Shown here in pieces: positions 982-18,110 of a stretch of 28,842 nt of DNA. The DNA is taken from positions 22,192-51,033 of the forward strand of contig NWUY0300050545.1 in the NCBI GenBank assembly GCA_004151065.3. The letters run 5' to 3'. Made by a program: the position numbers and the translations under genes. The stretch's first letter is position 1, and every line of letters begins with the position of its first letter. Below the pieces are notes generated by a model that was not told the DNA's origin, ran no database searches, and saw only the letters and a list, made by a program, of their open reading frames with translations. The stretch is from Larix sibirica. Lineage: Eukaryota; Streptophyta; Pinopsida; Pinales; Pinaceae.

Positions 982-2077
982 CTACGTATTCTTCTCTGAT
1001 TGTAGCTGCTGGGGAAGCAATGCCATAGAAGAGGGGCCACTTTCATCTTCAGCGGATGGCCCACCTTTATTCTCATTTTCACTTGCAAGGTCTCCTGTGA
1101 CGAAGAGAAACCAGTCCTTGCACATTGTTTTTAAAAGGGAACCACTTTCACTACCAAGACCTTCAGTGATTGAGTTAGCCATCATGTCACACTTATTTTG
1201 TAACTCTCTTTGAAATGAACTCAGCAGATTGTTGTCGATGGACTTTCCTACAAACCTGCAAATAGTAAAATTTCATCAAGAAACGTACTTTTATCGGTCT
1301 ACAACAGCCACTGAGAAATTTATTTTCACTGGGCTCTACCTTCAACATAAATAAAAATGGAGTCTCGTCTCCAATACATTTGAGTAAATTTATAGAGCAA
1401 AGAAGCCTCCTCCACACAGTCATAATTCATAACCTTTAATCTAAACTAAACTGAAAGCGTTTGGCAAGGCACCGACGACATTGAGAATTTTCAACATCAT
1501 TAATGTTAACACTAAAGTGTGTAGTACCACTCACATGGCAAATTTGGAAGGATCAATCTGTGCACAGCAGATGATGGAGCCTATCATTATAGATCCTATT
1601 GATTCACGCTTCATCCCTGTCCACGACCCAGGCATTTTACTTAACTGCTTAAGATATATTGCCAATCTATTCATTTCGTCCAAGAGAAAGAGGCACTCAT
1701 TTCGGTTGGCAGAAACAGTTTCAAATCTCTCTAAAACATATGCAACCGCAAGAAGTCCAGCAGCAGCCCAATGTGTCTCTCCTATTCCCTTTAGGAGACT
1801 CTTAGTGACGGTCTTCCACTTATCTTCCTTAGGATGACGAGAAATGGTATCTTTCTGGAAACAATAACAACAGAAGAATTTAGATTAAGAACATGGATGT
1901 GATCCTAGAATTCATGTTCAATTACAAATAAATAAAATTTGTCAAATTATGTGTAGATTTAATACGCACAACCCAATTGGTGTTTATTCCGTCGGAGAGG
2001 AAATTCTTTAGCATGGAGAAGCCTATTGAAGTCGGCCAGTGGTGTCGATCCTTTGGCCGTGACAATCTTTCCCCCTC
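982..2077 (-). CDS. Exons 11-13: C-terminal copy of the helical-bundle module and tail
   Basis: Exons 2077-1973 (35 codons), 1854-1535 (106 codons plus 2 nt) and 1255-982 repeat the architecture of exons 2, 3 and 4. Lengths are near-identical (37/35 and 104/106 codons), phases are the same, and shared landmarks occur in order: WPTS then LK.FLS in exon 11; KD at the start of exon 12; GLL.V..VLERFE.VS.N..EC..LL.EM; GSI.CC.Q...SKFA at the end; and a matching first helix in exon 13. The end of exon 10 (DLDLDSLNEYTSELLEHEEL) matches the end of exon 1. The protein closes with an acidic, Ser-rich tail (GGPSAEDESGPSS) and TAG. Divergence is clear, so this is an old duplication, not an assembly artefact. 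Function is unknown; by analogy with the N-terminal copy it may form a helical bundle. Confidence 0.7.
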
Positions 2078-5000
2078 CTATAAGAAAAAGAAAAGAAAAA
2101 TCATTATGTTAATATAAAATTATATATGTTTCATAGAATTCAGAATAGATATGAAAGATAGTGATTAACCTTGTTGAATTCGAAAAGTTGATATAGTTCC
2201 TCATGCTCTAAAAGTTCAGATGTGTACTCGTTCAGGCTATCCAGATCTAGATCCACAGTTTTTTTATCAATTGTAGTAGCTGCAGTTTGCATGTTGTTAG
2301 TAAGGTGCATGTGTTTTCCTTCTTCCATAGAAACCTTGATCAACAGTTCCATCAATCGCTTTGCTCTATCTTCCCTATCCGAGTTGATTAGGAATAACCA
2401 CTTCATAATTGTAGTGCTGCAAGTTGCAACTATTTTCCCATCTTCATACATGAAGATCATGTATCCAGCATAGAGATCTTCATCCACGAGTGGAAAAGAA
2501 TGTAAAAGTCTTCTCATTTCACAGAATTGCTTGTCATTGTCATCCATTCCATTAATCTCTTGTTTCAAATGGAGGAGACGCATCCAAAATCTCACGGCTT
2601 CATCTCCCGATAGATTCAGCAACGACATCCCCTCCATCTCGGCGGTCTTTCCCCATGGATAATAGCAGTCCTTTTTAATAGTGTCCGTTAGACAGATTGT
2701 CTTCATGTTTCCGGGAATATAAATAATGTGAATGCTATCCCTCAGTTCTATCATCGCATTCTTTATAGAACTGGTAATCTTCTCATCAAACCCTTTCTTT
2801 TCATCAAATCCCCCACTATATAAACATATTATTTTACTTTGAAACATTACCTCTTTCACCTTTTCAAAAACAACAACAAAGCAAAAATAGAATTGACAGT
2901 CACAATTCATGTATTCATTATTTTCCTTCTATTTATATGATCCCTGCCAAAACATATAATAAACAAAAATAACTCCCCCCAAAATATATAATTACTAATA
3001 AAAAAAATCACTGACCTGATTTGATACACTATCCAAATGGTTGAAAAGGAACATTAATGTTGACATACTGTTTAGTTGTTTCCATTCTTCTTTTCTTAGT
3101 TCTTCAATTTGATCATGCATGAAAGGACAAGCCTCTGCCCCCCATCTAACCTGATACGATACACTTTCAAGATGGTTAAAAAGAATCTCCCACTTATTCA
3201 ACTTACAGAGTATAGAAGGCTTATAACTTGTAATTCTCCCGTTCTGTTCTATTATAAAAATTATACTCGGATAACATTTTTCACATTCATCACTCCTTTC
3301 CCATCCACACTGTTTAGCCAGAAAAAACAGGACTGTTCTTGTTACTACCATCCATGAATTTTGGAGAACCAACCAAGGAACTTCGGTTGAAAACTGTTTA
3401 TATACATCAAATACATCCAATTCTGTACCTGCCTCCACAATTGGAATTGATATAATTTCAACATCGAGTCTCTCTTTTTCCATGACATACATTTTCTTCA
3501 AAGACGAAAGGCGAATGTCATAGAATAACTGGGGAGGCCTCAATTCTAATAAAATATTTTTGCCCTTCAATTTATCAACTCCACAAGTAAAAGGTTCGGA
3601 GTTTCCAGTTTGTCCCTACAATTTTCACAACACAATCAACGAGGGCAGTGAATACAATCAAGTTAAAAATTGTTAAAACGAACAGATATAACCAGGAACA
3701 AAAGTGAAAACACGAATATACCTGCTGTGATGGATAATTCTTTTGAAAGAAGGGAGTGCTTTCCTTATCTTCGTGTGTAAACAATTCTTTTAATAACTCT
3801 ACATTACTGTCGTGAGGGGTTTCTACAAGTTGTTTTAACCGGAGGTATCTTCTACAATTACCAAACAGAGATTCCTCCATTTCACTGTCCGTCAGAAGTT
3901 TCCAGGAAAGGAGATATTTATCACTGTTGCCTTCTCCAACCATCTTGGTATGCAGCTGAAAATAGTGACGTAACTCATATGCACGTACACTTTCAGCCAG
4001 AGATGTACCTGCATCTGATGTTAAGTACACTTTTTCTACAACCTCACGAGCACGAGTTTCTGACATATGGCCCACAAATATTCTATCTTTGACTTTCGTA
4101 GGCAATTTACTAAAATGTGGACCCATATAAATTATCTGAAATTGTATTTGGATTTCATTGATAGTCTCCTCAATTAAACGCCACGGGAAATGAAAAATAT
4201 TGAAATATGGACAGACATCACAAACGACAAGGAATAGTGTGTCTGGAGGAAGATCACATAGATGGACTGGTTCTCCACGTCTGAGCAGGTGATCAAATTC
4301 TGATAACAGCTTCATTTCTATGTTCTCCTTTTGATCCTCCGACATTGACAAATCCTTCAATGGAAGAAACAAAGTTATGGTCTAGTGTATTTGTTATAAA
4401 AGTGAACACGATGAAGGCAATAACATTTTGGTATCATAAATATGGATGGGTGTTATGATCACCTGCCCTGCAGTAACTACAAAAGACCGTGCCCGATGGT
4501 CTTCTCTTTGAATTTCTGCCCATTTCTTCACCAACTGCTCGCTTCCCTCGATATGCACAATTTGTAATCTGTTCAACTTTACCACATGGTCCATCCATTT
4601 TCCTTCCAGCTTGTTGCAAGAGCATAAATATAAATGTTGCAATGATGCTAGGCAATGGAAATCTCCAGGGAGCTTCTCTAACTCACGACAACCGCTCAAA
4701 TCTAGATTTTGCAATGACGAGAGGCAATGAAAGTCATCGCATAACTCTCTAAGGTGCTGGCAATCTTTTAGAACCAACTCCTCCAAGCACTTGAGTTGAC
4801 CAAAACCTTCTGGAAGCTTCTCTAGTGTCGTGCAGTATTGGAGGTCTAGCGCTCTTAAACTTGTTAATTTCCCAAATCCATCTGGGAGCTTCTCTAAAAC
4901 AGAACAACGAGCTAATGAAAGATGTGTGATATAGGAGAGGTTGCAAAACCCATGGGGTAGATCTTTTAGCCTCCAACAATCTGACATATCCAAGATTGGT

Positions 5001-8000
5001 TGCAATAGCTTCAACTCTCTAATGCTTTCTGGAATACTTTCTAGTTTTAAACATTGATTGAAATTTAGCTTAACAAGGCAAGCTAAGTTTCCTAAACCAG
5101 GGGGAAGATTCAATAGGTTATGGCAAAAGGATAAATTCAATAATTTTAATGATGAAAGTTTTTCAACACTATTAGGCAGTGCTTTTAGGTTGAAGCAGAG
5201 TTGCAGATGGAGTTCTTGCAGACAATTCAGTGATCCAAAATCTGCCGGCAACTCTGTCAAACTTACACACATATCCATTCTCAGTATTTGTAAAGATCGA
5301 AGCTTTGAAATTGATTCAGGTAGTTGCTCTATAGATGTGCAACCTGAAAGAGATAGTTCCCGCAAAACATTTACTTGATAACCCATCTCTTTAGGCAGAA
5401 TTTTGAATTTTTCAAAGTTGATCAATCTTAATTTTCTCAAATTTCCAAATTGCTGAAGATCTGTGGAAGTGACTTGTAAGGCATCGGAATGTAAGCTTCC
5501 ATCAAGTTCCATGTGTCTCAGACTGGAAGGCATCTGTAAATCATGTAATTGATATGTGACAACCATATGAAATCTTTAAAACCAATAAAACAATTTCTTA
5601 CATCGATTCAATGTTTTAGGAGAAATGAGTGAAGAAATAGGAGACCAAATCTTTGAAGGAGACTTACCTCAGATAACTTCAAGTCTCTGGGTTTAAAATT
5701 CAAGTATTTCAATCCCTTCAACTTTGACACATCAAACGGAAGATGAGTAATTTCTGCTTGGAAAAAAACCAACTTTTCAAATATTTTACTGCATTCGCCC
5801 TTCACTTGGGTTAAACTTCCGAGTGCAAGAACTCTCAATGAATTACACATTAAGTTGAGTTTTGAGGCAGATATATCCAATGGATTCTTATTTTTACTCA
5901 ACCAGATGCCTTTGATTGCTTGGATGTCCTGCATGCCATTATTAAATAGTCAAAATCAAAATTGTCATGGTATATATAGATAAATGAATATCACTTTTTT
6001 TCAAAGTTCATAGATCCGTTACCTTCTCCTCCTTGTGATCCAGCAACTCTTGAACTTGACCAGCATTAGTGAATCTAAATCTCAATTCTTGTGACTTTCG
6101 GCAACCAAGTGCTAAGATTATATCGTGTACACTGACAACTCCATTTGTGTCTTGCGTGACGAGTGCTCTGCTTTCTAACATTTTCAGTTCAGACTCTCCC
6201 ATAATATCTGCCACTGTGCCCCTATCCCATCCATGGAAAAATGAGCAGATGTCGAGGAAGGGATCTTTGCAATCCTCAGGTAGCTTGTCGTAAGCGAAGA
6301 AGTAGGACTCAATTTTACCTGGGCGAAAGTCTTCACCCTTCAAATTTTCCAGTTCTTCCATCACTTCACCAACTTCTTGCGGTTTGTCCTTCGCAACACG
6401 TACCGCTCCTGCTACTAACTTTAACATTAATGGAATACCACCACATTTTTTTATTGTGTGGTCAACTTGCTTAGAATCTAAAATTCTTTCCGGGTCATCA
6501 AACATTTCCTTTTGTAATAGACTCATAGCATCGGTAGAAGACATGCCTTTCATAGGGTATAAGTTGGCAGCTGTTTTCATTGGGCATGCTTTACGCACAT
6601 TTAAGTCCCGTGCGGTAATAAGCAGCCTCATCTTTTTTGCTTTATTCATATCATGTGGCAAAAGCTGTCGAAGCTCTTCTACACCCAAAACATTGTCTAT
6701 GTAAATGAAAGCCTGCACTTTCTCTAATGTGCGGTCCAGCTCTAGCTGTCCATCCATATGGTTGCTGATTTCTGAAACCTTTTCAGTTCCCATCAAATCC
6801 TTTAATATCTTGTTCTGCAACTCTACTATCTTTGGAGATGAATTTATATTCTCGAAGAGTTCAACCTTGGAATATTTACAATCTTTAATCTCAAGTTTTG
6901 AAAAAACAGCCTGTGCAAGGGTAGACTTACCCATTCCTCCAAACCCATGCAATATAACTGCAAGAGCATTCTCTTCACTTCCCCACTCCAAAATATCTAT
7001 GACTTCTCTAATTGCCTCATCGATTCCAACTGTTGCAATCATATTAATCATCACATTCCTATTTAAAATTAGTAATTATAAAATTATAATAATAACAGCT
7101 TCATACAAAACTTAAATTATTTAATTTCACAACATATTTTGACTTAATTAATTTCACAACATATTCACCTGCATGTTTAGGATAAAGTCTGGATACACTC
7201 GCCGTCTTACACTGATTGACATTGTATATTTCTATACCCATTTGGACATAAATATGTTTGTACATATCGTCTAGCTGTTGTGTCAGTTTAACCAGTGCTT
7301 CCTTACTTACCGACGTGGAAAAGAACCTGCAGTCAAACAAAATGAAATTTCATTAAGTACTTATTGATAGGTATTAAATAGGGGAGTAATCGTATTTGTA
7401 TCTTTTTCTGTTATCATTATGAATCCGACTTATAATCTTTTTCTACATTTGTAATTTTTTATTATTTAAATTGCATTATTGAATGTATAAAATATTTTTA
7501 TTGTGTTTGGATTATACAATTTGATATATACAATTTTCATAACTTTTTGAATTTTTAACAAGATTTTGAAAAAAAATATTACTTAATTTTTTTAAAATAA
7601 TACCATGTTTAGACTAAGGTTTTGATGCGGAGCATCCATCAATTAATGGGTCAAACCAACGTTTCAGTAACCGAATGACTACATGTCTCTCAGTTCCAGC
7701 CTTTTTGTTCAAAAATTTTAGGATTATGTTGTCCCTAAATTTAGTTATCTATTCCTTATGTTTGGTTTTGCCAGAGTGAATAGGAACATTTAGCGACCTT
7801 TTGGGGGGATTAGATGAACTGTCCTGATCTACAAAAGATCGATATGGACTAAGGAAAGGGGAACTTTTTTTAGGTTTTCATTTTTGAGTTGATTAGGTGG
7901 TTTAGAGGAGGAGAGGGGTTGTGTCCCCTGTAGAATGATGAATTGTTTTGAGGCCTGCGAGCCCATCTTCCAGCCTGTGAAAGAGGATGTATCCGAATCT

Positions 8001-11000
8001 GGTTATACAACAATAAAATAATCCTGAGTATCGAGGTGTGTGTTTTTTCCAGATTTATTGATTTTCCTGTTAATTCTGCAATTATGTGTTTTTCCGGTTT
8101 GCAAAGGCACTGCAGCTTGAGGATTTGCATCATTTTGGTATCTAAGCAACTTGATCCTTAGAGAAGAGAATGGCCCAGAGAGGATGGCCATTGTTGCAGG
8201 TTTACAACTAGAGACATAGCTGCTGAAAATGAAGAATTAATTTGAGAGGAGAACTAAATGTACTCAGAGGAGCACTAGATTGTACGAAAGTGCATTATTG
8301 TTACTAGTGACTAACATGTTGGCTATGGGAAGCCGTAATGTGAACAACTTTAAGAGAGTGAGTTGTTGAGAAGCCAAAGAGAGATTGGCAAGCTAAAGTT
8401 AAATTGCAGTGCAAGAGTTCATTTGCTTTAGTAGTCCTTGGTGTGTCTTGAGGAGCATTAGAAAGCCCTAGGGTGTATGTGAGTGTCTGTGGACATCGAG
8501 TTGGATAGAGGAAGCCATACCGACAGTGAGGATTGTTATAGTAAGTGTTGTACAGAAAATAAATGTCAAAGAGGGATAAGAAGTTGATCCAAGAAGAAAA
8601 ATAATGGATAAGGACTTGGAAATTGAAATGCACATGATTAACACATAATAATAGATTGTATTATGCATCATAAACAGAGATACATATGGTATATATAGTT
8701 GGAGTGAGATCCAACTTATTTCACTTTTGGAGGGAGAGGTTGAGAGAATATCTCAACNATAACTGCACTAATACTGATTCACCCCCCCTCTCAGTATTAA
8801 ATCGATTCCAACAATTGGTATCAGAGAGGGTGTCTTTAGTAACATATTACCATATGGAAGATATATTAATGTGTATAAATGGGCAAGTAGGAAGGCCTTT
8901 CTACAAACATAGCACCAAGGTTCGACGATACCAATTACATTTTCTGGAAGGTACGTATGGAATTTTATTTGCAATAATTGGGAGCAGATGTTTGGAAATA
9001 TATAGTCCATAGTTATGATGTCCGAACAATGGTACCAATCAATCCAACGCAAAGGAGACTCTATGAAATAAATGCTAGATCCATAAATGCTCTACTGTGT
9101 GGTCTGACAGGTGACGAATTTGTGAAGGTTATGCACTGTGCATCAACCAAAGAAGTTTGGGACAAACTCAAAGGTATATACGAAGGAGATGGCAAGGTAA
9201 AGAAAGCAAAGCTTTAGAACTATTTTGGGCAGTTTGAATCTTTGAGAATGAAATATGAAGAAAACATTACATATTACTTCTTAAGAGTTGATGATATAGT
9301 TAATGCTATAAAAGTCTTGGGGTCACTCCGGATGAAGAATTGGTTGTATAGAAGATATTAAGAACTCTGCCCCAAAGATTAAATTCGAAGGTATCTGTGT
9401 TAGAAGACCAAACTAACCTTGAGGAACTAACAAAGGATGAACTTCAGGGGATCCTCACTGCATATGGGATGAGAATAGAGAAAAAGACTCCCATCAGAAA
9501 GGAAGTTGCCTTCAATGCCACATGAAAGGACAAGCATGATCACGACAAAGACTGTTGTGATGAATCAGACGATGAAGAATCAAAATTTGTCAAGAAGCTA
9601 AAAAGAGGACATGGTAAGTATAAGAATAAGCCACCCTTTAAATGTTTCAGATGTAGAGGAATAGGTCATTATGCCTCAAAATGTCCTTACAAGAAAGAAG
9701 ACAGCGATGGTGATGAGGAATCTAGTGCACATAATCGGAAGATTGCACGTTCTCAACACAGACCTTAAGAATAGGAGGAGAATTCCAAAATAGAGAAAGA
9801 GTATGTACACTGAGGATGGAAGCAATGCATCTAAAGAAAGTGACAACGACTAAAAACCCGAAGAAGTACTTTTCATGGTTCATGTAGTGGAAGAAAGCAA
9901 GAAGAACAATTCAAAGAACACTCCAGTGGTGCAGAGCAAGCCAGGGACACTAGACAAATATTTTTTCCGTGGATCATTCAAAATGCCTCTGAAGCAAGTC
10001 ACACCTCCAAAACCTGTTGAAGAGGTTAAGGATAATAGTCAATCCGAACATGAAGAAGCTGTGGACATTGATTGGGAAGGTGAACTTATAAGTGGTTTGG
10101 ACAAATTAAAGATGTCTAAGAAGAAGAATAAGCTATTGCAGGAACAATTGTCAAAGTATGAATAATAGGACAAGCCATGTAATGAATCTGTTGACACAGA
10201 CATTCATGAAAGGATAAGCATCTTTGAGTACCAACTGAATTGCACACAAGAAAAGGTTCTAATAATTGAAAAAGAAAAATCTGTAATAAAAACTTCACTT
10301 GATGAATTGGCACAGGAAATCAGAAGCTAAGGATAAAGTGCAAAAAAAATTAAAAGATAGTACATCAATATTGAACAGGATTCNNCAACAAACCCAAACC
10401 AATCCCTAAACTCTAGTATGCATCATTAATGAGGCATTATCTCTAACATAAGGAAGGAGATGCAAGCAATCATAGCAATAATCAAAGAGCGGAGAGAAGA
10501 ATAACAAAGAACAAAGATCTGAGCCATAAGAAGAAGGATAAGAGCCTTGGAGGAAGAAGAAATTCAAAGAAGTGAAAAGAAGAAGATTGGAGAGGCAGCC
10601 TCAGTGGTGGAAATGTTTTATTACCCAGAGGAGGGTGATGACAATAAAATGGAGGACGAACATGCAGCAGAGTGTGTGCGTGAAGAAGAAATTACAAATG
10701 AGGATGCAACGGGTTCCATGACCTATGAAGTCGAGACAAAGCGGCAAGATGCAACATAGCTTATTCCCATGAAGCATGAAGATGAACATGAGCAGAAGAA
10801 AGAAGCTTTAAACGACTGCAGACTTCTAGTAGAGGTTGATTTAGGATTTGGAGCAAAGACTTCCCCTTCGATGTATCTTGAAGAAGTGAAGGAAGAGAGA
10901 TTGGCAAGCTAAAGTTAAATTGCAGAGCAAGAGTTCATTTGCTTTAGTAGTCCTTAGCGTGCCTTGAGGAGCATTAGAAAGCCCTGGGGTGTATGCAAGT

Positions 11001-13266
11001 GTTTGAGGACATCCAGTTGGATAGAGGAAGCCATATCGACAGTGAGGATTGAGGATTGTTATAGTAAGAGTTGTTGTTTGGTTGTACAGAAAATAAATGT
11101 CGAAGAGAGATAAGAAGTTGAGCCAAGAAGAAAAATAATGGATAAGGAATGAGATACAAGCAATCAGAACAATAATCAAAGAGTGGAGAGAAGAACAACA
11201 AAGGACAAAGATCCGAGCCCTAAGAAGGAGGATAAGAGCCTTGAAGGAAGAAGAAATTCAGAGAAGTGCAAAAAGGAAGATTGCAGAGGCAGCCTCAGTG
11301 GTGGAAGTGTTTTATTACCCAGAGGAGGGTGATGACAACAAAATGATGGAGGACGAACAAGCAGCCGAGTGTGTGCATGAAGAAGAAATTGCAAAGGAGG
11401 ATGCAACGGGGACAAAGAGGCAAGCTGCAACATAGATTATTCCCATGAAGCATGAAGATGAATGTGAGCAGAAGAAAGAAGCTCCAAACGACTGCAGACT
11501 TCTAGTAGAGGTTGATTTAGGAGTTGGAGCAAAGACATCCCTTTGAAGTATCTTGAAGAAGAAGTGAAGAAAGAAAAGGGAATGAATGGATAAATTATTC
11601 TGCGGGAACGAACAAGTTTGCCACTTGAAATGGTATTGTGTGCCAAATGGTATTAGTGCTGACAGCAGAAATGGGAAGTAGAACTCTTCTCATGTACATG
11701 AGAGAGAGAATGCCATGTGTACATGGCTTGGTTTGTCATGTTGAGATGGTTATGGTCACTCTAGAGTCATGCATGGCTATAGAGGAACAATACCCTATTC
11801 ACAGCATGGTTGGACAATTGACAGATTCAACAGAAGATAGAGTGAAGAACATGGCAAGGTGTTCCTTCTTGCAAAAGGATTGATGAAATAGTTGTTCAAA
11901 ACCAAGCAAACAGTTAGGATCATGTTATCCCTAAATTTAGTTATCTATTGCTTACTTTTGGTTTTGTGTGGATGAATAGGAACTTTTAGCGACCTTTTAG
12001 GAGGTGATTAGATGAGCAGTCCTCATTTACAAAAGACCGATATGGACTGAGGGAGGGGGTCTTTTTTTAAGTTTTAGGTTTTTAGTTGATTTAGGTGGTT
12101 TAGAGGAGGAGGACAGGGCCCTGTAGAATGATAAACTGTTTTGAGGCCGTGTGCCCATCTTCCAGCCTGTGAAATAGGATGTATCTGAATCTGGTTATTT
12201 AATAGTAAAATAATCCTAAAGGCCCTGCATCTTGAGGATCTGCGTCAGGCTTCCATTCCTCACGGTTTAATTAGGAAAGGAGGCCTCTACTATATTCACA
12301 TGAAAAAACAAATAAAATTAGAGCGTGGATCATTCACCTGGCAAATTTGGAAGAACGCATCTGAGAACAGCACATGATAGACCCTTCCAATATCAACTCT
12401 GTTGCGGTTTTTACTTCATCGTGCATTCCTTCCTTCAACTGAGGGCGCTCTTTGATCTGCTTAACAACTTTGGCCAAAAAAATCATTTCTTTCAGAAGAC
12501 GGAAGCACTCATCCCAGTTATTGGAAACATCTTCGAATCTCTCGAGGACATTTGAGACCACCAGAAGCCCTGTAGTAGCTAAGTGTGCAGTCCCCATATT
12601 CTGTAGGAGACCGCGAACTATTGTCTTGGCATCGCCAGGAATAATATCTTTCTGAATAAAAGAAGAATTTAGATTTAACAGGAGAATCGAATTTCACATA
12701 TCAATAAATTTAAAATTAAATATAATTAAAGAACGTGGAGGAGCTATATACTCACCAAGACATTTGTTGCCTCGGAGAGGAATTCCTTCACTTTGTTGAT
12801 GCTTTTTGAAGTGGTTGGCCAAAATCGGTAGTCCGGCTTTGACTGTGAGGAGTTTTTCTTATTCTCCTAAACAAAAACGAAATTTGAAAAATCATTCTAT
12901 TATTTTTCTGTATCATATGACAATATGATATTACCACTCTATAATATAACATATTATTCACATTAGGATGCCATATGAAAATAGCAAAGCAATCCACCTC
13001 ACCTTGATGAGTTCCAAAAGATCGGATATATGGTTGATAAGGCGATTCAAATCAACATCCACATTTTCTCCTTCAAATGCATTTAGATCTGTACTTATGA
13101 CGTCCAGAGCTTGAACAATGGAAGAGGAGGCGGTATCACCTGGGGATGGATCATCCTGCTTTACAACAGCAGAGGAGGCGCCTTCTGAAGAACTTGATGG
13201 GGTATTGTTTCTCGCTGAAAAGCAAGGAAAACATGAGGTGGAGCAACAGCAGCGTTTCTTTGCCAT
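982..13266 (-). CDS. NLR immune receptor with SEO-like domain and two helical-bundle modules (13 exons)
   Basis: Exons on the minus strand: 13266-13003, 12866-12756, 12651-12338, 7326-7169, 7029-6023, 5928-5668, 5533-4463, 4381-3722, 3615-3016, 2859-2170, 2077-1973, 1854-1535, 1255-982. They total 5,835 nt, giving 1,944 residues. All introns are GT-AG and all phases agree (0,0,2,1, then 0 seven times, then 2). Start is the first ATG (MAKKRCCC); stop is TAG at 984-982. Order: Cys-rich tip, helical module (about 60-282), NB-ARC (283-618), LRR (619-1062), SEO-like region (about 1063-1650), second helical module (about 1680-1900), acidic tail. Known: NB-ARC-LRR proteins are intracellular immune switches; SEO proteins are phloem P-proteins. 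Inferred: one transcript. The alternative is an NLR ending at 4394 followed by a separate SEO-like gene, but the gap is only about 40 nt and splicing joins them in frame. Exons were hand-built without transcripts, so ends may shift by a few codons. Confidence 0.75.
2170..4381 (-). CDS. Exons 8-10: sieve element occlusion (SEO)-like region of the NLR
   Basis: Exons 4381-3722, 3615-3016 and 2859-2170 encode residues 1063-1712. From about 1240 the sequence follows, in order, the SEO pattern as I know it: an H.N/D.N..LL..L helix (PHDSNVELLKELF); KGKNILLEL for K.VLLLISDL; VEIISIPIVE (to 1343) for the VVWIPIVD strand; PW (1362-1363); a W..........I..I..NG strand; WGAEACPF (1440-1447) for WG..AFPFT; EEW (1458-1460); CLYSGG (1494-1499) for LYGG; FWMRL (1573-1577) for FWTRL; and DGKIVA...TTIMKWL (to 1637). 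The exon 9/10 splice rebuilds the linker before CLYSGG, which supports the model. Known: SEO proteins are P-proteins of phloem sieve elements with thioredoxin-like folds. Inferred: an integrated domain in the NLR. Residues 1063-1200 are unrecognised. Confidence 0.7.
4463..5928 (-). CDS. NLR exons 6-7: leucine-rich repeats
   Basis: Exon 6 (5928-5668, 87 codons) starts after GCATGCAG and holds irregular LRR-like sequence (SLRVLALGSL, LKGLKYLNF). Exon 7 (5533-4463, 357 codons) carries about 12 regular repeats of roughly 24 residues built on L..LP..F..L..L..L.L..C. Examples are EQLPESISKLRSLQILRM, EKLPDGFGKLTSLRALDL and EKLPGDFHCLASLQHLYL. Known: such repeats form the ligand-sensing and autoinhibitory horseshoe of NLRs. 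The exon 7 donor is GGGCAG|GTGATC. If it is not used, translation reads on for about 22 residues to a stop ending at 4394, giving a conventional NLR that ends after the LRR. Long plus-strand ORFs over this region are antisense shadows of the repeats. Confidence 0.85.
6023..7029 (-). CDS. NLR exon 5: NB-ARC nucleotide-binding domain
   Basis: One exon of 1,007 nt carries the whole NB-ARC (residues 283-618). Motifs visible: P-loop GFGGMGKST (311-319); kinase-2-like FIYIDNV (390-396); RNBS-B-like MRLLITARD (416-424); GLPL-type CGGIPLMLKLVAGAV (478-492); RNBS-D-like CKDPFLDICSFF (536-547); MHD motif as VHD (583-585). Known: the P-loop Lys and Thr bind nucleotide phosphate and the MHD His senses ADP, so the switch looks functional. 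The FLDICSFF form of RNBS-D resembles TIR-type NLRs although no TIR domain precedes it. Acceptor GCAACAG|TTGGAATC was chosen because it keeps phase with exon 4; an upstream AG at about 7056 would place a stop in frame. Donor GAGAAG|GTAACG. Confidence 0.85.
7169..7326 (-). CDS. NLR exon 4: end of helical module
   Basis: Acceptor CTGCAG|GTTC and donor CATGCAG|GTGAAT bound this exon. It enters in phase 2, completing the Arg codon of exon 3, and leaves in phase 1, joining exon 5 at Val283. It encodes a helical stretch (KEALVKLTQQLDDMYKHIYV) and then a short linker ending YPKHA before the NB-ARC start VGIDEAIREV. It aligns with exon 13 at the far end of the gene (FVGKSIDNNLLSSFQRELQN), which has the same entry phase. 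That correspondence is the main support for connecting it across the 5,011-nt intron to exon 3. Confidence 0.7.
7706..8132 (+). repeat. Left (5') LTR of the intron element
   Basis: It aligns with 11893-12247 over nearly its whole length; shared blocks include CCCTAAATTTAGTTATCTAT, CCCATCTTCCAGCCTGTGAA and GGTGGTTTAGAGGAGGA. It carries about 75 bases (roughly 8027-8102) that the right copy lacks. Many point differences suggest an old insertion. Confidence 0.7.
8136..8147 (+). other. Primer-binding site of the intron LTR element
   Basis: TGGTATCTAAGC differs at two positions from TGGTATCAGAGC, the usual initiator-tRNA-Met primer site of plant LTR elements. It begins 4 nt after the LTR end, as expected. 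Confidence 0.6.
8615..10447 (+). mobile_element. Nested Ty1/copia relic (LTR, primer site, gag)
   Basis: This segment interrupts the B-A repeat and is flanked by ATAAGGA on both sides (8608-8614 and 10448-10454). An LTR-like stretch with TATATATAG (about 8690) ends CCAACA at 8813. After AT comes TGGTATCAGAG (8816-8826), a near-perfect initiator tRNA-Met primer site. A copia-type gag follows. No protease, integrase or reverse transcriptase remains, and a 3' LTR is not recognisable. Undetermined bases at 8758 and 10384-10385 suggest assembly trouble at both ends, so the missing centre may be an unsequenced or collapsed region. Confidence 0.65.
8853..10166 (+). pseudogene. Degenerate copia gag with CCHC zinc knuckle
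   Basis: Frames at 8978-9217 and beyond give text typical of copia gag (UBN2 family): GADVWKYIV, LLCGLTGDEFVKVMHC, VWDKLKGIYEGDGKVKKAKL, then LEELTKDELQGILTAYGMR. A zinc knuckle CFRCRGIGHYASKC (9643-9684) has the correct C-x2-C-x4-H-x4-C spacing and would bind nucleic acid in the virus-like particle. In-frame stops (after KKAKL at about 9217 and in KEVAFNAT*KD at about 9522) and frame changes disable it. A Lys/Glu-rich tail reads to about 10166. Confidence 0.7.
11893..12247 (+). repeat. Right (3') LTR of the intron element
   Basis: Partner of the left LTR. It ends in CA at 12247, only 90 bp from the exon 3 splice donor of the host gene at 12337. It lacks the 75-base segment found in the left copy. 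Confidence 0.7.
12338..13266 (-). CDS. NLR exons 1-3: Cys-rich N-terminus and helical-bundle domain
   Basis: Exon 1 (88 codons) starts MAKKRCCCSTSCFPCF, a cluster of six cysteines next to lysines that would suit S-acylation at a membrane. A Ser/Pro-rich linker follows, ending in an amphipathic stretch (DLNRLINHISDLLELIK). Exon 2 (37 codons) and exon 3 (104 codons plus 2 nt) continue with predicted helices, including LLVVSNVLERFEDVSNNWDE and EGSIMCCSQMRSSKFA. The pattern of Asn, Cys and Leu spacing resembles four-helix HeLo/MLKL-type or RPW8-like N-terminal domains; that is an inference from pattern, not a match I could compute. No TIR motifs are present, so this is not a classic TNL. Donors are AAG|GTGAGG, TTG|GTGAGT and CCAG|GTGAAT. 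Exon 3 is cut off from exon 4 by the 5-kb repeat-filled intron. Confidence 0.7.
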
Positions 13267-13842: not shown

Positions 13843-14589
13843 AATAGCCCACTCCTCTTAATTATGTTGATTTTCCGACATCATAAAAAAAGACTTCATA
13901 CATGCTTGATAAACATAATTGATTTAAGTGAATATTCATAAAATACTTTATCTTAAAAAATATTTTCATAAAGCTATATTTCAAATAAATATACATGTGA
14001 TCCATGTTTATGGAAACACTTTTGTTGTGGTTTTGAATGTAGGCATGATTTGACACGATGTAGAGTCAATCTCTAAATGAAAAGGCTTCTTTAAATAATA
14101 TCGATTTATGCAAACCCTCGATACATTCTTTTCATAAAATCTAAACAATTGCTAACAAATGAGGCTAGTCAACCAAGGCCCATTTAGCATCTCTTTGATT
14201 TGATTAAAGGAAATGTAAGTGGCCACCAAGGAAATTTCAGAGACATATCGCCAATGATGGACAAGCTATAACCCTTTTAGAAGAACTAATTGAGTTAAAA
14301 CTTGAAGGAAAATCCAACCTACTAAACAGGAGGATACCTATGAGAGGAGATTTCAATCACCAAATTCAAGACATGATTAATATTTTCATTTCAAGGTCAT
14401 ATCCTTAATCATGCCTATGAAATTCACATTGAGAAAATACTTATCAGTTTTTTTTAATCTAGTTTCCATTATGATAAGAGGTGATCTTATCAATTACAAA
14501 ATTTGTAAACGTGTTAGTTGGTTTGTTCCTGGAATGCATATGAGATCCCATCATAGGCCTTTGACTAAGGATTATTCTTTCAACACTAC
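13843..14589. other. No clear feature
   Basis: AT-rich sequence with short broken frames in all directions. The last 200 bases may belong to the integrase relic that becomes recognisable from about 14,600, but I cannot align them. No promoter, RNA gene or repeat is evident. Confidence 0.3.
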
Positions 14590-15290
14590 AACCATTTTTT
14601 TTGGAAACATCATTGATAGGTTTGGCTTCCCACATAATTTGACTAGTTGAGTAGTGGTTATGGTAAACATTTTCTTTATAAGACAATCACAATTCTCATG
14701 AGAGACAAAATTAGCCAACATCATAAAAGTAAGTGCCTATCACTCATAGACAAACGATACAATGAAAGCCTTCCAAAAAATTTGAGAACATGGACTTGCA
14801 AATGTTTTCTTTATCAATTGAGATGATTGGGATGAGCAAGTCCTAACCGTACTTCAAGAATATCAAATATCAAACCACCACCAAGAAACTAACCAAACAT
14901 GCACTTATCCGGTAGTCTCTTGCAAATAAGTGATGGGCCCAATTGAATTTGACTTTCAAAGTCTTCTCATTTCCTAGGCCACTCATATGTTAGAAGAAGA
15001 ATCATTGCAAGAGAAATTAAAATCCATAATGGCACTAGACAAATTCCATTAGAATGTGGAGAAGGCTAGACATAATGCCTAGCATGAGTGTCATATAAAG
15101 AACATAACCTTAAATAAAGGAAATAGGCAATGTTGTATGACATTAAATACTTGAAACGTCGAGGCAAGTTGCAGATGCATTGGCTTGGTCCATATTTTTT
15201 AGAGATCAAATATTCTTGAGTCATTCAACTAGTTCCACTAGATGGTGTACTTTGAAAGGATGGGATAATGAGCCTTGCCTAAATCCCTTT
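14590..15290 (+). pseudogene. Ty3/gypsy integrase C-terminal relic
   Basis: Fragments in shifting frames match the C-terminal half of plant gypsy integrases, in order: IIDRFGFPHNLTS (about 14,610), MKAFQKI*EHGL, DDWDEQVLTVLQEY (about 14,820), ATHMLEEESLQEKLKSIMAL (about 14,980), VEKARHNA, HIKNITLNKGN, and KLQMHWLGPYF (about 15,170). The expected catalytic Asp just after the FGFP block is replaced by a stop. Multiple stops and frameshifts make it non-functional. Its GPY-type end differs from the element that follows, so it comes from a different gypsy lineage. Confidence 0.6.
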
Positions 15291-15469
15291 ACCCCTACCC
15301 CTTAATAAGCAATGTTTCACTTCTTTTATAGGAGTGTGTTAGGTTAGGATGATATTTCTCCTCTTCATGATTTATTAAGAAGGTGAATGGAAGATCAATA
15401 TAACTGTGATATCCTATGCACAAGGTCTCTTTAGACAACAAAAGCAAGTGTAAAATATAGTGGAAGAAT

Positions 15470-16300
15470 ACAAAGATATATCTGCTTCACCTACAAGGAT
15501 GCCCTTGCAATGATAAGCAAGCATTCACTTGATTTGGTACCTCATGTTTTTTTACCTAATGGACCAATATATAGATTCTATACTCTAGAGAATGAAGAAA
15601 TCAAACCTTAGAGTCAAGATATTATCCAAAAGGGACACATTTAACTGAGCTCGTCATCTTCTGGGAGCCCAATTATATTGTTATAAAAGAATGATAGGAT
15701 ATTCTGACTCTGTATTGATTATAGATCTCCAAGAAAAATCACATTCAATAACTATTATCCAATCCGTTGAATTGACAATATTCTTGATCAACTCAATGGT
15801 GCCAAGTTTTCAAGTAATATTGATTTGAAGTCAAACTACCACCAAGTTCCAATTGACCAAATTGATATATGGAAGACAACCTTCAAGTCTAAAGAATGCC
15901 TAATTGAGTGTTTGGTTATGCCTTTTAGCTTGACTAGTGCATCGATAATTTTCATGAGGATCATGGATGATATATTGTGTCCATTCACAAATTGATTTGC
16001 GGTTGCATATTTGGATGACATCCTCATCTTTGAAAAAACTTGGGCAAGACATTTGCAAGACATTTTTGCAAATACAAAGCACCATGTGGTGGCACAAATT
16101 ATATGTTAATATGGAGAAATGCTAATTTGGCATACACAGAATTTAATATCTAGGATACATCATGGATGAACGTGGTGTGCATGTGGATCTATCCAAGATA
16201 TAGTTCATTTGCAGTTGGCTGGCTTTGACGACTTTAATAGAGCTCTACAACATTTTGGGAGTCACTAACTTCTATACTAGGTTTGTTTTGGGATTCTCTC
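15470..16300 (+). pseudogene. Ty3/gypsy reverse transcriptase relic
   Basis: The reverse transcriptase can be read across frames with stops: LPNGPIYRFYTLENEEIKP, IQKGH, CIDYRSPRKIT, DLKSNYHQVPID (15822-15857), LVMPFSLTSASIIFMR, and the catalytic YLDDILIF (16008-16031), then LISRIHHG for LGYI. Both catalytic Asp codons of the YLDD box survive. Stops such as TN*FAVAYLDD (about 15,993) inactivate it. Upstream protease and gag of this element are missing; sequence before about 15,450 is unlike it. Confidence 0.7.
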
Positions 16301-16369
16301 ATATCGCTTAGCTCCTAATCCAAGTGACGAAGGATGAGGCCAATGTAATTTCATTAGGATCAATTTAAA

Positions 16370-16830
16370 AAATAAATCATTCAAGGACCTGAAGCATCGC
16401 CTTTGTTTAGTGTCAATGCTCACTTTGCTAGCCCTGCAAAAACTATTTGAAATTAAGACAAATGCTTTATATATGCTATAGGTGTAGTCCTCACTCATCA
16501 TGGACATTTGACAACCTATCACAGAGAGACATTCTTTGATGTGGTTCACATGTACCCTACCTATGATAAGGATATGTACTCCATTGCATAGGTATATCTA
16601 TACTGGAAGCATTACATTATGGGGAAGGAGATTATCATCCACATTGATCACAATCCGTTGCAGTTGATTCATATGCAAGGAACATTATAGAATGACTAGC
16701 ATAAAAAATGGTCCATGTACATTAAACAATTCCAACTAAATATCAAGTATAGGATAGGCAACACAAATCACATTGTGGACTGCCTCAGCTGAACTCTAGT
16801 TGCGGTGTTGAACACAATACTCAACTCTTG
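16370..16830 (+). pseudogene. Ty3/gypsy RNase H relic
   Basis: It continues the polyprotein of the preceding relic. Recognisable text: YPTYDKDMYSIA (about 16,555), VYLYWKHYIMGKEIIIHIDH (about 16,590-16,650), NPLQLIHMQG, and KYRIGNTNHIVDCLS (about 16,745-16,790). These correspond to the YPTYDKEMYAIV...WRHYLLGKE...TDHK...RHQKW region of plant gypsy RNase H. Several stops are present. Confidence 0.6.
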
Positions 16831-16939
16831 TGGATGCATGTCCTTCTAGTGGTCCCAGTTGTATGATAGTGAAGGATTAACTGTTCATTTACCTATTAGA
16901 CACTAGGTATGGATAAACTAGTCTTAAAATTCCATCTAT

Positions 16940-18110
16940 AGGGTGAAATTTTATGCCACCCGGATCATATTTGTGTTCCTTCAACTAAGCATAAGAAACT
17001 TATTTGGGAGGTATAATATAGTTAGGTGGTTGGGCACTTTGACATGGATAAGATAGTGGGAGTGCTGCAAAAGTACTTCTACTACCCAAAGGTCCGACAT
17101 GATGTCAACAACTATATTAGGTCATGCATTTCCTATGCCATCGCCAAGCTTTCCATCAAGAAACATTGGTCGTACACCCTTTTTCCTAACCTAGACAGAC
17201 TCTAGGAACCTATCTCCATGGACTACATGTTCATTTTGCCTTCAACCAAGCATGGGAATGACTGTGTATTTATGGTCATTAATTGGTTCTCTAAGATGGC
17301 CATTTTGACACCCTATAAGAAGAGCATTACAATAAAGGCTAATGCTAATTTTTTCTTCAACGAGCATGTTTGGATTCATTTTGGGCTCCAAGGAACCATT
17401 GTTTCAGATAGGGATAGTAGGTTCTTGATTAATTTATGGTCCATCCTATGATTGAGAAGGAACATTAAGTTGACTAAATCGACTGCTTTCCACCACAAAA
17501 TTGATGGATAGATAAAGTTATTCAATAGGATGATTGTGCATATCCTGAGAATGTATGACCTAAGAATGCACAACTCGAAACATCCTTACACATCGGATGA
17601 GAACCTTCCATATGTTCAACATGGCTACAATAGAGCCCTTCATAGCTCTATTGGCCACTATCCCTTTCATTTGTGCTTGGGGTTCCAACCATTGGCCCCA
17701 ATTGATGTAGCTCTTCCCATTTCATATACACAGGAAGAATTCTCCCATACTAAAATTGAGGTTGATAAAAAAACCAATTTTTTGGAATGAATCATACACA
17801 TCCAACAATAGGTTCATGATATTTTGTAGAAATTCATTGCCAAGTATAAGTAGTGACACAATCAACATTGAGTTCCACACAAGTTTCAAGTGGGAGATAT
17901 GGTATGGTTGCATTTATAAAAAGAGCACTTGATAGGACCCCATTGGAAGCTCTGTCAATTTCGATATGCACCTTAGACCATAGCCAAGGATATGGGCATG
18001 AATGTTTTTAAATTAAGTATCCCCCCTTTCCACCTCTCTTGGACACCTCAAAGACGACTGAACATTTGGACCCTACATAACTCAATTCTCACTACATTGA
18101 GTAGGAAATG
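16940..18110 (+). pseudogene. Ty3/gypsy integrase relic with possible chromodomain-like end
   Basis: An HHCC-type zinc region (GHFDMDKIVGVLQKYFYYP, then a decayed C..C) precedes the catalytic core: MDYMFILPSTKHGND (17218 onward) with the first Asp, VINWFSKMAILTPYKK, and VSDRDSRF (17401-17424) with the second Asp. Next come NLPYVQHGYNRALHSSIGHYP (about 17,607-17,670) and a C-terminal block FQVGDMVWLHL, then LSIPPFHLSW. The largest open pieces are 17218-17451 and 17530-17790. Stops at about 17,451 and 17,509 among others show decay. The region is in order with the upstream RT and RNase H, so all three belong to one element. Confidence 0.65.

Follow-up and report, generated by a model that had tools for sequence, protein, structure and literature searches.

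A Larix sibirica immune receptor gene whose NB-ARC-LRR core appears to be set between two SEO-like halves

Introduction

What place does a stretch resembling a phloem protein have in the gene of a plant immune receptor? The question is raised by a window of DNA from Larix sibirica, by which we mean the whole stretch analysed, 28,842 nucleotides of contig NWUY0300050545.1 (assembly GCA_004151065.3, positions 22,192 to 51,033 of the forward strand). A sequence-only reading of this window had proposed a nucleotide-binding leucine-rich repeat receptor (NLR) that runs on in frame into a sieve element occlusion (SEO)-like domain. To our knowledge, the origin of the SEO P-proteins and the roles of their domains are open questions. 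According to the available part of Rueping et al. (2010; PMC3017817), the domains of SEO proteins are an N-terminal one, a C-terminal one and a thioredoxin-like fold that lacks its two central cysteines, and a four-Cys motif is also present; the same part reports that a search of four monocot genomes and a moss found no SEO genes, and tabulates non-SEO legume proteins with single SEO domains.

The best explanation of the comparisons described below is that the window gene belongs to a class of large plant NLRs that occurs in one conifer or more. Within this class the NB-ARC and leucine-rich repeats (LRR) appear to be set between two SEO-like halves, and the SEO-like stretch does not look like a simple decoy added at the C-terminus.

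Results

The gene in the window

One complete gene model lies on the minus strand, with 13 exons (13266->982), 1,936 residues and its sole stop at the end. All 12 introns are GT-AG with consistent phases, and the gene spans 12.3 kb. The interval proposed earlier, 2170-7029, takes in exons 5-10; four exons upstream (to 13266) and three downstream (to 982) belong to the gene as well. The earlier claim that the NB-ARC-LRR reads in frame into the SEO-like stretch holds, as the introns are GT-AG and the coding frame of exons e8-e10 contains 0 stops, whereas each of the other five frames contains 6-23 per exon. With boundaries set by alignment and exon ends, and "helical" read from the sequence, the residue order is a Cys-rich N-terminus (1-44), a helical domain (45-282), NB-ARC and winged helix (283-618), LRR (619-1062), a region called u1 (1063-1285), a thioredoxin-like part (~1286-1430), an SEO_C-like part (~1431-1660), a second helical copy (~1674-1895) and a tail. 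The parts of the gene are as follows:

13003..13266, minus strand: exon 1, with the Cys-rich N-terminus (MAKKRCCCSTSCFPCF) and the opening helices of the N-terminal helical domain
12756..12866, minus strand: exon 2, N-terminal helical domain, with intron phases equal to those of exon 11
12338..12651, minus strand: exon 3, core of the N-terminal helical domain, probably SEO_N-related, with a weak MLKL_N match
7327..12337, minus strand: intron 3, 5 kb, with a retrotransposon-like insertion inside
7169..7326, minus strand: exon 4, final helix of the N-terminal domain, then the linker that leads to the NB-ARC
6023..7029, minus strand: exon 5, NB-ARC and winged-helix region (Pfam NB-ARC, E=1.8e-21)
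5668..5928, minus strand: exon 6, first portion of the LRR
4463..5533, minus strand: exon 7, main portion of the LRR (Pfam LRR_14, E=4e-32)
3722..4354, minus strand: exon 8, region u1 past the LRR, without known match; start moved from 4381
3145..3579, minus strand: predicted thioredoxin-like domain of the SEO type, within exon 9 (3615-3016), on the basis of profiles
2170..3144, minus strand: SEO_C-like region, made up of the last part of exon 9 (3144-3016) and of exon 10 from 2859 to ~2299; the second helical copy begins at ~2259, within this interval
1970..2077, minus strand: exon 11, second helical copy
1535..1854, minus strand: exon 12, core of the second helical copy
982..1255, minus strand: exon 13, where the second helical copy ends, with a divergent tail and the stop

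In Pfam, nothing in the window protein scores above cut-off before the NB-ARC or past the LRR. Profile and identity calculations were mostly made on an earlier gene model, 9 residues longer at the start of exon 8.

Relatives and the LRR-SEO junction

Five proteins were found with the post-LRR part as query. The whole protein as query, scored on the post-LRR part and hence restricted to long candidates, gave four. All four are long NLRs: P0006 (2,031 aa), P0007 (1,688), P0008 (1,596; 8 member sequences) and P0009 (1,710), the last an annotated hypothetical protein of Cryptomeria japonica. They are collinear with the window protein over most of their length, at 47%, 40%, 40% and 30% identity, respectively, and 4/4 keep the order helical domain, NB-ARC, LRR, SEO-like part; P0002 shows the LRR and then the SEO-like part. 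Another conifer, Cryptomeria, has the same order, and the NLR-SEO fusion is not a one-off.

These relatives bear on the simplest alternative, in which two adjacent genes, or an assembly or annotation join, produce the apparent fusion, the NLR ending past the LRR and the SEO-like part being separate. The short intron between LRR and SEO-like part (108 nt) would suit such a join. However, P0006, P0007, P0008 and P0002 cross the same junction in contigs that reach only 224-545 bases beyond the coding sequence (380-545 for the first three), the annotated Cryptomeria genome shows the same order, and the sequence at the exon join resembles P0006. We infer that the four contigs are spliced transcripts, because they barely exceed their coding sequences whereas the window gene spans many kilobases with its 12 introns. 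Since the relatives cross the junction, this alternative was rejected, and we regard it as extremely improbable.

Some of the joins can be compared with these relatives. Exon 1 is based on frame, on an ATG following a stop and on a GT donor, and it is collinear with P0006; the join of exon 4, LYPKHA/VGIDEAIREV (slash at the junction), corresponds to P0006 LYPPDAVGIEEPVREV. The LRR-SEO intron, placed earlier at 4463/4381, is better read as 4463/4354, because the acceptor at 4354 (after ...TTTGTTTCTTCCATTGAAG) has a better pyrimidine tract than 4381 and the resulting join, TAGQ/DLSMSEDQKEN, comes close to TGQ/DLSKEEKEN of P0006, being two residues longer; the acceptor at 4381 would add nine residues without counterpart in P0006, P0007 or P0008. 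An SEO-only isoform made by skipping exons 5-7 was discarded, as the 2339 nt removed are not divisible by three and the frame breaks, and a bacterial promoter and terminator scan over the LRR-SEO intron was uninformative for a plant gene.

The post-LRR stretch and the SEO proteins

For comparison, angiosperm SEO proteins were fetched with an SEO sequence as bait. This gave 135 matches, and among the 120 listed 119 carry both SEO_N and SEO_C and one, P0058, SEO_N only. The SEO profile was built from 23 proteins of <65% identity, out of 107 with 600-760 residues. In a profile-profile comparison (hhalign), ten post-LRR sequences of the receptor family matched these 23 proteins with Prob 99.1 and P=9.5e-19 over 301 columns; the controls gave 0.62 for reversed sequences and 0.42 for the NB-LRR region. 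This joint alignment of the thioredoxin-like and C-terminal parts extends into SEO_C. Taken alone, the thioredoxin-like part gave P=2.5e-12, profile against family, and SEO_C gave P=0.0013 against 0.26 when reversed.

In single-profile searches with the thioredoxin-like part, nine of the ten members exceed the best of 3000 shuffles (9.0 bits) against the SEO profile, the window at 16.5 bits and P0006 by only 0.4, whereas P0008 fails. When the 23 SEO proteins were searched with the receptor profile, the top score was 72.2 bits, while the best of 483 decoys reached 6.1; the midpoints of the matches in these SEO proteins lie at residues 330-486. The SEO motifs listed in the sequence-only reading are present in the window; indeed, at 68 aligned SEO columns that are at least 80% conserved in 53 SEO proteins, the window has the identical residue in 22. 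When the window residues were permuted 20,000 times among the aligned positions, identities averaged 4.0 and never exceeded 14; these trials involve no realignment, which flatters the observed 22 somewhat. P0002 matches Pfam SEO_C at E=0.0011, below cut-off. No CxxC follows the first thioredoxin-like strand, a strand placed by eye, and one CEKC stands elsewhere, at aa 1384; on sequence profiles, the window is thus predicted to have the thioredoxin-like fold without canonical cysteines that characterises SEO proteins. By profile, then, the thioredoxin-like/SEO_C stretch is homologous to SEO proteins.

Several other comparisons led nowhere. Region u1 as another copy of SEO_C gave P=0.11, equal to the reversed control. 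The only PDB relatives of the SEO-like part were WD-40/beta-propeller chains over ~40 residues (E 0.0027-0.86), taken as chance, and a PDB search with a real SEO protein found no relative at E up to 10. In NCBIfam, P0006 and P0009 matched mostly bacterial LRR effectors, through the LRR only and below cut-off. A Pfam scan of four other window open reading frames and one short piece gave no match.

The helical domain ahead of the NB-ARC

The probable kinship of the N-terminal domain with SEO_N was traced through Cryptomeria. The N-terminal 241 residues of P0009, searched alone, match Pfam SEO_N with E=2.7e-8 and 33.8 bits (cut-off 27). With a custom SEO_N profile, P0009 scores 16.8 bits, where the best of 3000 shuffles reaches 7.4, and its match over 10-119 (15.6 bits) is in register with the start of SEO_N. 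The window domain matches the P0009 N-terminus with E=1.4e-25 (database size set to 1,000,000), and Pfam does not detect SEO_N directly in the window domain; P0006 has a weak SEO_N match (0.031 at full length, 0.23 with the N-terminus alone). In the opposite direction, the profile of the N-terminal domains finds two of the 23 SEO proteins above the best of 483 decoys (5.5 bits), namely P0125, whose SEO_N region scores 15.1 bits, and P0126, with 6.6. The SEO_N kinship of the window domain, which runs through P0009 and is not uniform across the family, is thus supported but indirect. In SEO proteins, SEO_N ends near residue 300, and the receptor alignment resumes at SEO column 291, past the LRR and u1; therefore the NB-ARC-LRR and u1 sit approximately where SEO_N meets the thioredoxin-like part.

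It is possible that the helical domain is a plain executioner of the HeLo or coiled-coil (CC) type, and that the SEO_N match reflects a shared bundle fold and not kinship. MLKL_N is the commonest weak match among the helical domains, seen in three of seven (best E=0.0044, below cut-off; the window domain reaches 17.0 bits against a cut-off of 27), and Pfam SEO_N matches just two of the seven. However, the SEO_N match of P0009 is far stronger, passes the cut-off when the N-terminus is searched alone and lies in register, and the remainder of an SEO-like protein follows later in the same chain. We consider this explanation unlikely. The weak MLKL_N matches may instead be taken as a lead that points the same way as an executioner role of the helical domain. 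Among PDB entries, the best relative of the helical domains had E=0.4.

A second helical copy

In exons 11-13 the N-terminal domain recurs, with the intron phases of exons 2-4, and the two copies in the window match each other at E=8.3e-28 (profile P=2.1e-37). In a tree, the five second copies of the family group together, apart from the five N-terminal copies (support 100/99). In the thioredoxin/SEO_C tree, the members with a second copy (window, P0001, P0006, P0007) also form a clade (98/96); P0008, P0002 and P0009 stand outside it and have no second copy in their sequences, although P0002 lacks its start and may also be truncated at its end, and P0003, which has a second copy, is not in the tree. 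One duplication would explain this distribution. The sequence-only reading of an NLR with a C-terminal SEO domain is therefore borne out by the profiles and by the collinear long relatives, and falls short in two respects, as the N-terminal domain is probably SEO_N-related via P0009 and a second helical copy stands at the C-terminus.

The receptor core and cysteine-rich ends

The NB-ARC has its PDB relatives in MLA13, Sr35 and NRC1, and the window carries the motifs GFGGMGKST (P-loop), GIPL, FLDIC and VHD. The P-loop is intact and FLDIC is present in 5/5 family members (window, P0006-P0009); FLDIC is reminiscent of TIR-type NLRs. The kinase-2 motif, usually DD, reads IDN or VDN in the same five, with N for the second acid, so that nucleotide switching may differ in a core that otherwise looks typical. 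No Pfam match for TIR, Rx-type CC or RPW8 was listed for the window (E up to 5), for the N-termini of the four relatives (E up to 10) or for the seven helical domains (E up to 1), in searches whose HMMER filters discard most matches above about 0.1. Pfam also found no kinase-like domain in the window protein.

Cysteine-rich N-termini were observed in P0006 (residues 1-26, MRKK...C.SC..CF) and in the window (residues 1-16, MAKKRCCCSTSCFPCF), and are candidates for S-acylation; P0001 ends in CSIC. Exon 9 contains a 16-codon insertion (3192-3145, minus strand, aa 1415-1430) that none of the four long relatives has. It is similar to a stretch 47 codons downstream (FLFNHLDSVSNQ), as if copied within the exon.

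Surrounding sequence

Direct repeats at 7718-8025 and 11914-12217, 84% identical, flank a decayed LTR-retrotransposon-like insertion in intron 3, and the exons on either side remain in frame. On the plus strand, 14100-17700 holds remnants broken by many stops, which by their motifs look like a Gypsy-type pol. In the databases, P0123, which has both SEO domains, is assigned to a 2,003-base contig of Enterobacter hormaechei and looks like plant contamination of a bacterial record.

Discussion

We propose that the window gene encodes a receptor in which an NB-ARC-LRR is framed by SEO-like halves, and that the C-terminal half restrains the N-terminal one until perception releases it. The architecture by itself is highly probable from the comparisons above. 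The restraint and release mechanism is a tentative proposal that we would not yet bet on, and the reading as a whole is one that we favour on balance.

A number of results weigh against it. On the N-terminal side, full-length P0009 matches SEO_N at E=8e-6 with 25.7 bits, under the cut-off of 27, and a second stretch of it (138-219) scores -0.3 bits with the custom SEO_N profile; the other four of five N-terminal domains fail to exceed the shuffles with that profile. The N-terminal family compared with the SEO_N profile gives Prob 7 and 15% (P=0.005 and 0.0018; reversed controls 0.13 and 0.12), and all but 2 of the 23 SEO proteins score below the best decoy with the N-terminal profile. On the C-terminal side, a single-profile search with SEO_C places 0/10 members above the best shuffle, and Pfam gives no SEO match for the post-LRR pieces of the window, P0006 and P0009, that of P0009 showing only a weak Thioredoxin_8 match (0.055). 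The C-terminal four-Cys motif M1 is absent at the end of the window protein; at the end of P0009 there is a CxxC...CxxC stretch that looks similar to it by eye. The window stretch alone has no Pfam SEO match in the kind of search suggested with the sequence-only reading, and the SEO link rests on the relatives and on the profile-profile comparison.

Two further explanations accept the SEO-like part and differ in what it does. First, the gene may encode a sensor NLR with an integrated decoy, in which the C-terminal SEO-like part baits a pathogen or insect effector that targets SEO or thioredoxin-like proteins, and the SEO_N-like head is merely the executioner of its class. Integrated domains are commonly placed past the LRR, which is where the SEO-like part lies. 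Region u1 is among the less conserved parts, as a bait may be, with 29-40% identity to the relatives against 37-53% for the NB-ARC. Thioredoxins occur among the integrated domains of non-flowering plants, according to the available part of Chia et al. (2024; PMC11218826). However, the SEO part is kept in deeply diverged members, and the thioredoxin-like part is conserved about as well as the NB-ARC in three of the four relatives (48, 48 and 51% against 51, 48 and 53%; P0009 has 26% against 37%). Moreover, both SEO halves are present, which a captured bait would not need. A decoy is a minority view among our readings, and we think it improbable.

Second, the SEO half may be the output, so that the receptor, once activated, would polymerise or seed filaments of the SEO type, and these would block conducting cells or seal off the cell under attack. 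The presence of SEO_N-like, thioredoxin-like and SEO_C-like parts in one chain would fit. Receptors are usually scarce proteins, however, and would make poor plugs. SEO proteins do form P-protein filaments and forisomes, as the available text of PMC3017817 describes, but the window lacks the C-terminal Cys motif found in all SEO proteins that Rueping et al. treat there. We rate this effector fusion as quite improbable, clearly behind the decoy.

Under the framed-receptor proposal, an SEO_N-like helical bundle would replace the usual CC or TIR executioner as a putative membrane-acting head, and the Cys-rich N-terminus would anchor the receptor at the membrane by S-acylation. At rest, the C-terminal SEO half, with the second bundle where there is one, would pack on the N-terminal SEO_N-like bundle and hold it in check, much as the two halves of a single SEO protein would pack together. 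Perception via the LRR or the SEO half would cause the NB-ARC to oligomerise, and the freed helical heads would then act at the membrane or assemble like SEO proteins. Our best guess from the sequence is that the C-terminal SEO half, which would be the natural counterpart of SEO_N, restrains the head or serves as a sensor.

The receptor resembles the SEO/SEOR P-proteins (SEO_N PF14576, thioredoxin-like part, SEO_C PF14577) in having a predicted thioredoxin-like domain without the canonical first-strand active-site cysteines, in its SEO_C-like motifs WG..A.PF, LY.GG and FW, in the probably SEO_N-related helical domain ahead and, in P0009, in a C-terminal Cys cluster. Unlike them, it has ~780 residues of NB-ARC-LRR, and u1 in addition, between the SEO_N-like and thioredoxin-like parts, and the window protein has no C-terminal Cys motif and bears a second helical copy. 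It shares with plant NLRs carrying integrated domains an NB-ARC and LRR with an extra domain past the LRR, but in the window class the N-terminal domain appears related to the same extra protein, and the layout is kept in distant members. MLKL and other HeLo proteins likewise have a helical bundle, to which the window class shows a weak MLKL_N match; in the window this match is below the Pfam cut-off, and no kinase-like domain was found. Like the hydrolase-, kinase- and Cbl-N-type NLRs of non-flowering plants (Chia et al. 2024), the class has an N-terminal domain that is not TIR, Rx-type CC or RPW8; the available main text of that article (PMC11218826), however, has 0 occurrences of SEO, sieve or HeLo.

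As the sequence-only reading had supposed, an NLR-SEO protein was not found among the matches listed in the open PMC literature. In the available parts of PMC11218826, PMC7642918 and PMC6691002, the words SEO and sieve have 0 occurrences; in those of PMC12787737 and PMC11126693, "seo" occurs in author names only; that of PMC10161555 holds nothing on such a fusion, and that of PMC5853782 makes no link between SEO proteins and NLR guardees. As far as seen, the architecture is thus already public as the Cryptomeria hypothetical protein, without description among these matches.

The SEO phloem proteins of flowering plants and the window class may go back to one ancestral gene, in which SEO_N, an NB-ARC-LRR and a thioredoxin-SEO_C part made up a single immune receptor. 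SEO proteins would then be former NLRs without their NB-ARC-LRR; in the opposite direction, an SEO gene would have taken up an NLR core on a single occasion early in the seed plants. We hold this as a possibility that is rather doubtful. A tree separates the seven receptors from the 23 SEO proteins with support 100/100, and, because this split is unrooted, the evolutionary direction cannot be read from it. If SEO proteins are former NLRs, they would have kept the head and the tail as a self-assembling plug.

A receptor that retains both SEO-like halves around its switch would tie a family of phloem-plugging proteins to NLR immunity. The nested layout would make SEO_N testable as an executioner domain of the immune type, and non-flowering plants would gain a receptor class whose head and tail have a common origin.

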